From Blastocystis sp. Blastoise (Eukaryota; Sar; Bigyra; Opalinata; Blastocystidae): a stretch of DNA of 64,000 bases. The translations under genes and the position numbers were made by a program. The notes beneath the pieces were generated by a model. That model made no database searches, was not told the origin of the DNA, and was given only the letters and a program-made list of their open reading frames with translations. The stretch is from positions 839,001 through 903,000 of the forward strand of contig JBBPEB010000026.1 in the NCBI GenBank assembly GCA_039096225.1, given 5' to 3'. This document shows, one piece after another, positions 41,685 through 48,758 of this stretch. Each line of letters starts with the position of its first letter. Position 1 is the stretch's first letter.

Positions 41685-41697
41685 CACTATGAGGCAG

Positions 41698-42300
41698 GGT
41701 GGCCTATTTAAGAGTTTTGATTGGTTAATTTTAAAAATAGTCCAATAATTTTTCTTTAAAAAATTGACCTTCTAAAAAAGTGGTTTAGAGAAGGAATTTT
41801 TCTGAAAAACAAAAAAAAATAATTCTAAGTCGCTATTATTTTTCTATTTTTCTATATTCTTCTCATATAGAGTTAATATGAGGTTTTTGACATTATATTC
41901 AATCAATAGGGTCTTTATTTGACAAACAGAGCTGCTTTTTATGTTTGTTTTCTTAACATTAGTGGTTTGGAAATGTTGACTTATTTTCAATAAAAAATTG
42001 CTAAACGGTGTTCAATAGACCATGTAGACTCATAATATAAATGAAAAAACTTGTTTTATGATGTTTATAAAAAAAGTCAAAAACAAAAATTCAGACAGTC
42101 AAATTTTGTAATACACGGTAATTTTTTTCATTTCAAAAGAAAAAGAAAAATTTGAAAGTGGGTCTTTTGTTTTCTTTTTTTGTTGAACTTGATGTATGAA
42201 TATGTATTTTGTTTTAATATATCATTTTTTATTTAGTGAGGATGTTCGTGTTTCAAATTTGTTGTATTTTATATATTTTATTTTAGTTAATTCATTTCTT
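41698..42300. other. Left arm of E3, no gene seen
   Basis: Subterminal arm with GATTGGTTAA (41719), CCAATAA (41742) and stretches similar to the left arm of E2 up to about 42170. No open frame of note. Confidence 0.6.
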
Positions 42301-42778
42301 ATTTTAGGTATCAGGTCTTTTAAAGATGAGACAACTCTGTCCATCGTGAAATTGGGTTCTGTGTTTTCCTAGGTGGTTCAACTGGATCAAAAATACTTTC
42401 TGTATATAATTATATTTTTTAATTAGCATTATTTATTTAATCTATCTTTATTTTATAGTATAGAATGATTGCTGGTGATCAAAAGTGTTTATTTATTTAT
42501 TATCTGTCAGTCTAGTAAGTATTTATATTAATTAGATTGTAATTACTTATTTTTTCTATTATATATATTTTTTAAATTTATTTTTTTATTAATTTATTAT
42601 ATTAATCGCTATCTTATTATTTCTACATTTTTAAATATAATTTTTATTCTATTTTTACGATAATAAATTATATATATATAGACATACGAGTTAATACTTT
42701 CATTGAGTGAAGAACTTGTTTATCTTTTAATTTATTTTTTGTAGTGTTTATTATATATCAAAATATAGATGAGTATAT

Positions 42779-43039
42779 ATATTATTATTATTATTATTAT
42801 TATTATTATTATTATTATTATTATTATTATTATTATTATTATTATTATTATTATTATTATTATTATTATTATTATTATTATTATTATTATTATTATTATT
42901 ATTATTATTATTATTATTATTATTATTATTATTACTATTATTATTATTATTATTATTATTATTATTATTATTATTATTATCTGAGATATTATTATTATTA
43001 TTATTATATTATTATTATTATTATTATTATTATTATTAT
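42779..43039. repeat. (ATT)n microsatellite in an AlaRS-like intron
   Basis: About 200 bases of pure ATT (one ACT at 42932), then CTGAGAT and a further 50 bases. It fills the intron before the catalytic-core exon of the AlaRS-like gene. Poly-Tyr or poly-Ile frames over it are artefacts. Confidence 0.9.
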
Positions 43040-45246
43040 AGATTATCTGTTCTTTTACATATAAATTAAATAGATAGCTGGATTTGATTATAAATCTATA
43101 TTTTCCCGTGGGAAGAAAGATAATTTCTGGTCGATGGGTGATGGTGTCGGTTCATGTGGTCAGTGTACTGAAAAAATTTATGCACATGTATATAGATATA
43201 GATAAATATAATAATAATATGAATCATAATTATTGATGATATTTTTATACTATTTATATATATATAGGACACTGATTGATATATATATGATGATCTTCTC
43301 GAAGTATGGAATATTGTATTCATGGAATACGAGCAGAAGGAGTATATATATATATATATAATTATATTTAATGATATTTGTATATTATAGTATATATATA
43401 CAATATAATGAATAATTCTATATTTAATTTTATAATTATATATATTATATCTCTCCTTTTATCTTAGTCTTCCCTCGTTCCTCTGACACACTACTACTTC
43501 GACACACGAATGGTTCAGAACGTATGGCCAGTGTTGTATATATATATATATAATTCATTACAGATATACTAATAATATACTATATATATATAGCTTCAAG
43601 GCGTATGTTCAAATTTTGATACAGATGTTTTCTATTCAATGAAAGATAATTTACTTGTATATATATGTATGTATATATTTTTTCTTAATTATATATAATA
43701 TATATATATATTATAATATAAACTATATACAGTTAATTCGGTAACCCTATATAAAAACTGATAAAAAGCACGTGCTCAATTTGAAAAGTTCCCGCCAAGC
43801 ACTTCCCGCGTAAACCTATCACCGTATACTACGTTGCTTAATATTCTTTCAGACCATTTCAGACAGTTTCAGCACTTATATATCTAGGTATATATCCATC
43901 GCCTACCGGTCGCGGATGTATACTAAGAAAACTAATTAGGTATATATATGTATATATAATTGTTATTCATAAATACAATAAGGACAATCATATATAATTC
44001 TATATATATAGACGTTGTTTAAAATATGAGTATATATACAATATTCAATTCCCTTTCTTGTCTTCTTGTATTCCCGCGGTTATTCAATCTTTAGGTTTAT
44101 ATATATATATATATATATATATAATAGAACTGTTTTATCCTGATATTTCAAGTCACGTGCAGGACATAACGTCAATTGTGGAGAATGAGGAAATGTATTT
44201 TTGGCGGGCATTTGAGTGCGGTAAAGATAAACTTGAAGACATAGTAAAATCATCAAAAGTATATACTTGTGTTGATTTATTTATTTTTAATTTTATTATT
44301 GTTATGCTTATTTGTATTATAAAGAATTGTATTTGTTATTATTATATATTATATATTATATATGTATATATATATATATAGAAACGATCTATTCCCCCAT
44401 CTCTCGTGGATTTGAACCAATTATATGGAAGTACAGGAATTTCATTGGATCTCTCTCTTGTATTATTGGAAGAATGTGGAATTGTGTTACAGAACACAAA
44501 TATACCTGAGGATGAAATAGACCAATCAAAAAACAAAGATAATAAATCTAAAAGAACAGTATTTATCATATATTTATTAGTTATATGTATATTTATTTAT
44601 AGAATATAGGTTTAGATAGTTATGCTATTCCCGCACTTTCTGTTCTTTCCGCGCTTCACAATTCATAATAATAATAATAATAATAATAATAATAATAATA
44701 ATAATAATACTCTTCCTCCTCTTCTTTCAACACAATCAACGTCTAGTATACAAGCTATATTGAATCCTCCCCGCGGGAATAAAGCTAAATATTCATATGT
44801 TTGTATCGATCCATGTCCATTCTTCCCCACGGGCGGGGGTCAACTGGGGGATCAAGGAACACTATTAACTGATGATGGAAACACTATTCCCATTATAGAT
44901 ACTGTATATATGCTATTTTATTATATATTGTTAGTCAATTATATATATATATATATATATATAGATTCGTGTGAATGATCATTTTATATTATTAAAAGCT
45001 TCCATTTCTGTTCCCGCGTCCCTCCTTCACGCACGTGTCAATCCCTCTGTTAACTCTGATAATTGAGCGTATATATATTTATATTAATATTTCTGTTGTT
45101 ATTTTGCTTTTATTTTTCTCTATCTCTATATATATATAGTCAGACCTCTATTCATCACACTTCTACTCATCTCCTTCATGAACTACTTCGAAGATATATT
45201 AATGATCCATGTATATATATATAATAATAATAATAATAATAATAAT

Positions 45247-46119: not shown

Positions 46120-46562
46120 GGTCCAAAAGCAGTTGATTATTTATATAATGAGCATATATCTTTAAAACATTGTGTGAGAAGCATAATATCCAATCATCTG
46201 CATTGGATAATGTTTTATCCAATCAAAAATAAATAATACAAGAATTATCCAATTAGAATAAGTTAATGATTAAATGTATTATTAAATCCATTCAGCCTAC
46301 TACTTCTTATATATGTATATAACTATTATTATTATATTTTTTTGCTATTTATATACTATGTTATTTATATATATAGGTAATAATAAAGAAGTTCACGTAT
46401 ATATCATACCTTCCGAATTCTCTTCCGAATGCTATCGAAAAAGAAGTCAATTCAAAATCTATTAATATATATATATATAAATAATAATCAATCATATGCC
46501 AAAAACCTATGAAGATAATACTAGCTGGAAAGTATTTATAGCAAATCTTTGATGTATACATA

Positions 46563-46887
46563 TATTATTATTATTATTATTATTATTATTATTATTATTA
46601 TTATTATTATTATTATTATTATTATTATTATTATTATTATTATTATTATTATTATTATTATTATTATTATTATTATTATTATTATTATTATTATTATTAT
46701 TATTATTATTATTATTATTATTATTATTATTATTATTATTATTATTATTATTATTATTATTATTATTATTATTATTATTATTATTATTATTATTATTATT
46801 ATTATTATTATTATTATTATTATTATTATTATTATTATTATTATTATTATTATTATTATTATTATTATTATTATTATTATTATTATT
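46563..46887. repeat. (ATT)n microsatellite, about 325 bases
   Basis: The longest pure trinucleotide run in the window, ending TTGTTATATAG. It lies after the last clear AlaRS-like exon and may be an intron of its degraded 3' part. Short coding-like pieces flank it (LPNSLPNAIEKEVN near 46415). Confidence 0.9.
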
Positions 46888-46977
46888 GTTATATAGGATA
46901 ATGTACAGTGACTTAGATCTGTTAGATCAAATTATATATAAAGATTTAATAGATATAAAGAATATTATATTGTAGAA

Positions 46978-48742
46978 GTATATATATATATATATATATA
47001 TATATATATATATATATATATATATATATATATATATATATATATATTACTATTATTATTATTATTATTTCCTATATATACTATCCATTAGTATTATATA
47101 TGTTTTATAGGCTAATTTAATTGAATATACTTTATTTAATTACAATAACCTCTTTTAAAATATCTTCATTATATTATTTTTTATATGATTTATTATCTTC
47201 CTTCTAGTCTACTCTTTGTATTAATTTTAATATATCAAAAGAAATAACCTATTTAGAAATAATAAACTATAAAGTAACTACTCTTCTTTCTCTTCTATTA
47301 CTACATATGTATTATGAATTCTACAAATATATATATATATATATATATATACTCTCCTTCCATTATAAATATTAGTCTTTATTTGAATCATTATGTGTTT
47401 TGTTCAAAACTGATTTGTATTAAACTGCATGATAAATAAATGTCATTATTAAATTAGCTAATAATTAATTTTGTGTTTTAATAGTATCTATTATTATTGA
47501 TATATTTTTCACTATAACAATATAAATCATATTTATTATTTTACTAAATCATTCATGCAAGTGTATTTTTACTCTAATAAATATAGAAGAATAAAATTAA
47601 TTTATTTCAAAGAATGTACTAATTAGAAAAAAGTAATGCCACATAAATTATCTTATTTGATAATTTGTTCTGTTCTTATCAATTATGTCATATTATTATA
47701 TCAATAGAACCTATACATGAGGGCAATTATGACTTCATTCCTTGAAAATATTAAAATCGTTATTTCGGTAGTCTCTACACGTTATTAATAAGAATAAATA
47801 AACGTATACAACTCATTTTAAACTCTATTAATAGACTTTTGTTTAACGAAGACTTTTTAGTATTAAAAAAAAGAAAAACAGACGTTTTCATCTATCTCCT
47901 GGATTTAAATCAAATTTTAATGAAATTTTTATATATAAATAAAAAGATTCTTTTTTACCCCCACCCCTGTTTATTTTTTTATATTTTTCAATCTTTACAT
48001 AAATATTTTTTCTATTTATATTTCAAAAATATATAATAAAGGTTCTATAAAATGTATTTTTATTATTTTATACATATAATAGTATATAGGTTTCTTTATA
48101 TCATCAAAATAATAAGTAAATGAATACGATTATGGATAAGGTATATATATATTTATTCTATAATTAATTCTATAGGTTTATTATATTATTATCAACTCAA
48201 AATATCAAAAACACTAATATTGGAAAGGTATGTTTCTATTCATTTTTACTAATTATATTCTAGCATCTATAGGAAGACCAAGTATCTCAACCTTGACCCA
48301 TTACAAAGCTTCTTATCAATGGTATTTACTTATATTCACCTTTTATTCTTTACATTCTTATCATTTCTTTATATATAGGTATTGAAACTTTCTGCGGTCT
48401 TATTAGAGTGTTAATAGCTGTATAGATTACTCCATTACAAACTTAAATTGTTCTTCTCTTCTTCTTTTTTTTCCTTGTCTTTTTTTCTCTTTTCTTTGTT
48501 CTTTCTTCTGTATATTAATGCTTGAAAAGTTATCCAATCGTTTTGTTTATTTTAAATATGTTTTATTGGCTGATATAAAATAATATATAATTTTCATTGG
48601 GTCATTTTTAAAGACATTTTTTATATTCCCGTGAATTTATCAAATATATTAAGGTTTTTCCCCATGCTTATAATTAAGCTGAGAGGGTTCTGATTCAGTC
48701 TGATGACAAAACCTCTCTTTGTAGAGGTTTTGTAAAAAAAAA
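46978..48742. other. Right arm of E3, no confident gene
   Basis: A TA run (46978-47047), then AT-rich sequence without a convincing frame. Subterminal words occur at 48530 (TTATCCAATCG), 48566 (ATTGGCTGA) and 48596 (ATTGGGTC). A run of C, CCCCCACCCC, lies near 47958. A pyrimidine-rich tract spans 48447-48510. Confidence 0.5.
48706..48733. repeat. Perfect hairpin near the right end of E3
   Basis: ACAAAACCTCT (48706-48716) pairs perfectly with AGAGGTTTTGT (48723-48733) around a six-base loop. It ends nine bases before the right terminal inverted repeat. Subterminal hairpins of this kind are common in DNA transposons. Confidence 0.75.
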
Positions 48743-48758
48743 CTGCCTCATAGTGAAT

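Follow-up and report, generated by a model that had tools for sequence, protein, structure and literature searches.

Contig C17 of the Blastocystis sp. Blastoise genome harbours a CACTA-type DNA transposon, E3, that carries between its ends a fragment of an alanyl-tRNA synthetase (AlaRS) gene. E3 lies in a 64-kb stretch of this contig (C17:839001–903000; the window), C-numbers denoting contigs of the assembly that we searched (33.3 Mb in 34 contigs). Judging from sequence comparison, E3 is very probably a non-autonomous element of the Pack-CACTA type that transduplicated exons 5–18 of an AlaRS gene on C16 and moved to at least four sites, a lower bound obtained by scoring 40 of 1572 candidates. 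With the same high probability, the cargo has no AlaRS function and is carried along as a decaying passenger, a captured pseudogene present in multiple copies. Both ends of the fragment lie at (TTA)n microsatellite tracts, which may have served as the joints of capture.

Element E3 and its captured AlaRS exons

E3 starts with CACTATGAGGCAG and ends with CTGCCTCATAGTG, which form perfect 13-bp terminal inverted repeats (TIRs), and it is flanked by a target-site duplication (TSD) of 3 bp, AAT (Table 1). The 13-mer of the TIR occurs exactly at 20 places genome-wide and with at most one mismatch at 42 places, 21 on each strand, as compared with 3 places for a reversed control pattern. A TSD of at least 3 bp flanks 13 of 14 elements for which both ends were read, the exception being element C24a with 2 bp. 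Two hallmarks of the CACTA superfamily, TIRs starting with CACTA or CACTG and a 3-bp TSD, are both present in E3, and a crude 10-mer count revealed no subterminal short repeats within 600 nt of either end. E3 is a real CACTA-type element, as the first-pass annotation of this DNA had proposed. Its interior contains no match to PF02992, and Rfam and tRNA scans of the window gave no match. When seven single pieces (five from E3 and two from the interrupted host gene) were scanned against Pfam, two of the five E3 pieces matched AlaRS below the cut-off; an EED-insertion match on an Asn-rich piece, also below the cut-off, was read as low complexity.

The AlaRS gene on C16, which we modelled by hand, consists of 19 exons with an open frame of 947 codons and with all introns of the GT...AG type, and its product is a full member of TIGR00344 alaS (582 bits versus a cut-off of 457). 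The E3 interior aligns with this gene at 83–97% DNA identity per aligned piece. Exons 5–18 account for 754 of the 947 codons, and exons 1–4 (158 codons) and exon 19 (35 codons) are absent. The first-pass annotation had recognized an AlaRS-like interior with HxxxH and CxGTH sites; both are intact in E3 as HTSTH and an intron-split CGGTH. It had also described an almost whole, intron-containing gene, which is accurate for the introns and too generous for the gene. Likewise, the statement that AlaRS is the only recognizable gene in E3 is not exact, as the right part of the element holds a further exon that also occurs on C8 (89% identity of the C8 copy to the C23b copy used as the query). All 14 captured exons of E3 keep their AG/GT borders; a retrocopy is rejected because the fragment retains introns and splice borders.

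The same exons 5–18 are present in all four copies (C17, that is E3, C10, C15 and C3), and exons 1–4 and 19 in none of them. E3 shares with Pack-TYPE elements the lack of an internal transposase, a host-gene fragment between the TIRs with its donor elsewhere in the genome, and movement as a unit in more than one copy. Some borders lie outside the alignments, namely those of exons 8, 12, 13 and 18 in C15, exon 10 in C3 and the first part of exon 14 in C10. Both ends and the TSD were found for the C17 and C15 copies; the C10 copy has both ends, 35 kb apart, and for the C3 copy TIR search and arm comparison located the left end and not the right one. In C10, a 2.8-kb insert splits AlaRS exon 14 (C10:155396–158064) and some 26 kb separate the AlaRS part from the right arm (about C10:127983–154109), both probably the result of nested insertions. 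Two intron-like inserts in the captured exons 13 and 14 have the form GTATATA...TATATAG, and the frame of E3 would be kept across both if they were spliced; they may reflect intron gain in a pseudogene or precise loss in the donor.

Since the C16 gene includes exons that the element lacks and reads open, and since the genome 13-mer search gave no TIR match near it, the direction of transfer is from C16 to the element, and the reverse, a C16 gene derived from the element, is rejected. Its N-terminus is arginine-rich and resembles a mitochondrial targeting sequence, which suggests an organelle-type enzyme. The genome search that the first-pass annotation had called for also revealed an AlaRS locus on C19, which we take as the cytosolic enzyme, and a locus on C2 with an editing-domain match and no synthetase-core match, which we read as a free-standing AlaX-like gene. 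Two further tRNA_SAD matches of equal score lie at C26:904631–904777 and C29:122372–122518, perhaps marking a duplicated synthetase gene. By eye, CCCGC/CCGCG motifs look frequent in the exons of the AT-rich AlaRS and PIWI genes (stretches L018 and L046).

E3 interrupts codon 31 of a TLDc-family gene. Eight of the ten database proteins listed run uninterrupted across the insertion site and the other two begin downstream of it, among them the annotated model of the window's own gene, WA158_004446. We had considered the 40 nt after the right TIR as an intron and dropped this assignment because the paralog proteins show them as coding. The family to which the gene belongs has a TLDc domain and yields 93 database matches, all 93 named Blastoise, which looks like a large expansion in this genome.

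Table 1. Features of E3 and its insertion site, in window coordinates
Feature	Position	Strand	Remarks
E3, whole element	41685–48755		ends CACTATGAGGCAG ... CTGCCTCATAGTG, perfect 13-bp TIRs
Left TIR, CACTATGAGGCAG	41685–41697	+	sequence read and genome 13-mer search
Right TIR, CACTATGAGGCAG read on the - strand	48743–48755	-	sequence read and genome 13-mer search
TSD, AAT, 3 bp	left copy 41682–41684; right copy 48756–48758		flank comparison
5' coding end of interrupted TLDc-family gene	41593–41684	+	ATG at 41593; coding resumes at 48759
Left arm	41685–42779	+	69–99% by segment to arms of nine other elements compared
Left (TTA)n stretch (left cargo joint)	42780–43037	+	donor tract L018:5083–5112
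Captured AlaRS fragment, donor exons 5–18 with introns	43074–46553	+	alignment to C16 gene
Captured exons 5–9	43074–43187, 43268–43341, 43468–43535, 43594–43656, 43733–43939	+	
Captured exons 10–14	44012–44094, 44128–44258, 44382–44558, 44603–45068, 45140–45475	+	
Captured exons 15–18	45599–45733, 45889–45984, 46121–46314, 46377–46553	+	
Captured exons 14–16 with editing-domain sites	45140–45984	+	HTSTH in exon 14, CGGTH across exons 15/16
Extra intron-like insert, captured exon 13	44904–44964	+	in C17, C10 and C15; not in C3 or donor
Extra intron-like insert, captured exon 14	45211–45304	+	in all four copies (2.8 kb in C10); not in donor
Right (TTA)n tract (right cargo joint)	46563–46886	+	donor tract L018:8595–8762
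Single further exon	46896–46989	+	also in elements C23b (91% to E3) and C10, and on contig C8
Right arm	47060–48755	+	common to sister elements

Cargo joints at (TTA)n tracts

The unique homology between E3 and the C16 donor stretch (L018) begins directly after one (TTA)n tract of the donor and ends directly before another. In sister elements that do not carry AlaRS, (TTA)n occupies the equivalent place: in C19, C23a and C23b on the left and, in C23b, on the right as well; arm comparison showed no left tract in C33a, C33b and C22. After the left tract, C23b, C19 and C23a continue into other sequence that is not AlaRS. The cargo of C23b is a PAZ/PIWI gene fragment (PAZ, E 4e-12), and its right end is the same element tract that forms the right AlaRS joint. 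A non-element copy of this fragment lies upstream of the window at C17:835.1–837.5k, where homology stops about 30 nt short of an intronic (TTA)n tract. The C8 copy of the further exon has a (TTA)n tract on each side, and in the C3 copy the right AlaRS tract is joined to unrelated sequence.

Different arms also meet at the left tract. Over its final ∼490 nt, the left arm is 90–99% identical among C17, C15 and C3, whereas C17 is only 76% identical to C10, which in turn is 87% identical to C23b. Past the tract, 17 of the 19 blocks compared (200 nt each) are at least 95% identical between C17 and C10. Tracts with five or more TTA units make up 4.6% of the AlaRS gene and 3.9% of the PIWI stretch, values that rise to 9.2% and 9.7% when margins of 35 nt are included, and the chance of three donor-side joints lying that near to tracts is approximately 0.059 × 0.059 × 0.097 = 3e-4 (margins of 10, 10 and 35 nt), a post hoc and uncorrected value. 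Coverage of the short C8 piece is so high (12–37%) that this case adds little.

Microsatellites acting as reusable capture joints would be the best mechanistic reading of these few junctions. Here, the (TTA)n tracts that the elements have just inside their arms would be docking joints, and sequence between tracts of host introns (AlaRS, PIWI and the C8 gene) would be swapped in as cassettes, which would make the family a modular gene-fragment shuttle guided by microsatellites rather than by chance microhomology. We put this forward tentatively, at somewhat less than even chances. An element would break or stall at its internal (TTA)n tracts, and repair or replication synthesis would switch over to those of the donor introns and then return. 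The sequence between two tracts would thereby be exchanged as a cassette, and the resulting chimeric element would be mobilised in trans by a protein of the C19 type acting on the shared terminal repeats. The AlaRS fragment would stem from a single capture event and would have been damaged before or early in its spread.

The candidate source of such a protein is the C19 element, which is 13,099 bp long and has the same 13-bp ends as E3. The leftmost 100 nt and about 70 nt at the right end are nearly the same in both, and the two elements are alike only at the arms and in a 73-nt piece near the tract. The C19 element contains an 867-codon open frame, counted from stop to stop (C19:667398–669998), with what we take, by eye, to be tnp2-like motifs. 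Four database relatives of the protein were found, all from Blastoise, one of them with a sub-threshold DUF4218 match (E 0.0011).

Several observations weigh against this account of capture and spread. The 867-codon protein has no Pfam match, and none of the four PF02992 (Transposase_21) matches in the genome lies near a TIR match. The two intron-like inserts seen in the copies are missing from the donor, and the allele that was captured may thus have been a different one. Compared with C10, E3 shows a shift in identity near element position 600, away from the tracts (the first 600 nt of the C17 and C10 arms being 96% alike), and the C33a right arm shifts from 83% to 97% near window position 47930. 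E3 has no (TTA)n tract at either position (∼600 or ∼47930), and the tracts are therefore not the sole exchange points. Also, microsatellites grow and move, and a tract may have come to lie at a joint only secondarily; the junction set is small, was assembled post hoc and comes from a microsatellite-rich genome.

The alternative to tract-guided capture is the route known from Arabidopsis Pack-CACTA elements, in which passages of PMC13317346 and PMC8903248 describe tandem insertion followed by aberrant excision. Two elements would have flanked the AlaRS segment, aberrant excision would have removed their inner ends and the hybrid would then have moved, with the tracts being later or incidental. 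This route has the advantage of being the published model for Pack-CACTA elements, it would accommodate the exchange points of E3 that lie away from tracts, and two pairs of element ends do occur within 90 kb of each other on C23. We nevertheless consider it unlikely for E3, at perhaps one case in four, since it leaves unaccounted for the lack of a TIR match near the C16 donor, the shared element tract at which the AlaRS and PIWI cargos end, the several arm types that meet at the left tract and the tracts that the donors, too, have at the joints.

Decay and coding capacity of the cargo

The E3 copy has frame-breaking indels in exons 6, 7, 9, 13, 17 and 18 and six stops in the donor frame, all of which the first-pass annotation missed. 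Frame-breaking indels are present in each of the four copies, together with six (C17), nine (C10), seven (C15) and seven (C3) stops. All four copies share a deletion in exon 9, three deletions in exon 18 and the stops at codons 623 and 908, and the fragment was thus broken before or early in its spread, or the lesions spread by conversion. As some lesions are common across arm groups (C17 with C3, C17 with C10), they point to exchange between copies. Two of the origins considered in the first-pass annotation, a captured host gene and a dying passenger, fit these data; a one-off captured pseudogene, which it had also considered, agrees with the lesions and disagrees with the number of copies.

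Among sites kept by the donor and by at least 90% of 118 AlaRS homologs, C17 retains 95 of 105, C10 87 of 102, C15 95 of 110 and C3 87 of 105. Ka/Ks is 0.32–0.48 between donor and copies and 0.55–0.72 among copies. For the editing module, on which the first-pass annotation had suggested such a test, Ka/Ks among copies is 0.72, inside the 5–95% range of a neutral simulation (0.58–1.42). Two observations count against pure decay: the pooled value of 0.65 falls just under its neutral range (0.66–1.15, mean 0.87), which speaks slightly against pure neutrality, with the limitation that the pairs are not independent and that the simulated mutation spectrum derives from the same changes; and of the 45 conserved editing-module sites present in the donor, E3 still has 42. 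Weak past constraint or conversion may account for this signal. The depositors modelled the C10 and C15 copies as hypothetical proteins, WA158_002628 and WA158_003528, which begin at MGDGVG and bypass the lesions via other splice sites; these are probably pseudogenes turned into models by gene prediction.

Some Pack elements have been proposed to act via antisense or small RNA. Antisense or small RNA from the copies might accordingly tune the donor AlaRS gene, which would be compatible with the high DNA identity between cargo and donor and with the Piwi/PAZ-type genes of this genome. Nothing in the sequence requires an RNA action, and we regard such a role as improbable.

A free-standing, AlaX-like editing protein, another suggestion of the first-pass annotation, would be translated from exons 13–16, the codon-623 stop being spliced out through use of a cryptic 5' splice site. 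E3 does retain both editing sites and all splice borders, the depositors' C10 model uses just such a splice site and the pooled Ka/Ks is slightly under the neutral range. Yet the editing-domain frame of E3 is broken by a deletion in exon 13 and by the codon-623 stop that all four copies share, conserved sites of the editing module have been lost in every copy (3/45, 6/39, 5/45 and 7/45), the annotated C10 and C15 models are without the CxGTH cysteine and an AlaX-like locus exists elsewhere in the genome, on C2. We therefore consider an editing product very improbable.

A working second, organellar AlaRS encoded by E3 is rejected for the four copies found and merits practically no credence: only sequence resemblance speaks for it, but E3 lacks the N-terminal exons that complete the class II core, each of the four copies has frameshifts and stops, and the intact gene is the donor on C16.

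Related elements and significance

Other members of the family also carry gene-like cargo. The sister element at C23:138885–158269 (L036, L037 and L042), with the PIWI/PAZ fragment, contains a nested Helitron-type open reading frame of 1041 aa, a cut piece of which matches Helitron_like_N (E 2e-17). Multi-exon coding-like cargo was seen in a related element at C33:821103–829149 (L045) and at no fewer than 25 further places, and the first part of the C33 cargo also matches C4:818468–819674. For the C33b cargo, a profile search with four pieces gave nothing below E 0.09.

As far as passages of PMC8903248 and PMC13317346 describe them, plant Pack-CACTA and Pack-TYPE elements resemble E3 in their CACTA ends, in the host-gene fragment between the TIRs, in the presence of several copies and in the mis-annotation of some of them as genes. 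E3 differs in its host, a gut protist of the stramenopiles, in having its joints in (TTA)n tracts of both donor and element, and in that different cargos end at the same element tract. The animal Pack-TIR elements, for which passages of PMC8277862 invoke gap filling or FoSTeST, are similar in that template switching via short homology between element and donor is followed by transposition. Their microhomology is given there as 1–36 bp with a median of 2 bp, whereas what E3 and its donor share is a microsatellite tract, found as a joint more than once. Helitron-type elements carry microsatellites, and capture joints at microsatellites are absent from the passages of PMC4344730 and PMC4067079 that we consulted. 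With respect to protein families, the C16 donor is a full alaS member and the E3 copy a broken one; compared with AlaX-type editing proteins, E3 keeps the sites and not the reading frame.

Searches of the open-licence literature for Blastoise, for CACTA elements in Blastocystis, for Blastocystis AlaRS and for synthetase capture by CACTA elements found no paper, a weak absence given that scope, and gave no description of such an element in this lineage. In the text of the ST7 Blastocystis genome paper, the string 'transpos' occurs once, in the repeat-masking methods (PMC3129679).

As cargo of a Pack-type element, AlaRS is nothing unusual; the interest of the case lies in the same type of tract serving different cargos and arms. 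In practical terms, the case flags WA158_002628 and WA158_003528 as probable pseudogene models and WA158_004446 as a TLDc model that starts downstream of an insertion. How DNA transposons gain pieces of host genes is still debated, and in Blastoise a single assembly contains the donors, paralogs in which the host site is uninterrupted, multiple element copies and several joints. Together they suggest a testable rule, capture between matching microsatellite tracts, which, if true across the family, would explain exon-scale capture in microsatellite-rich genomes.

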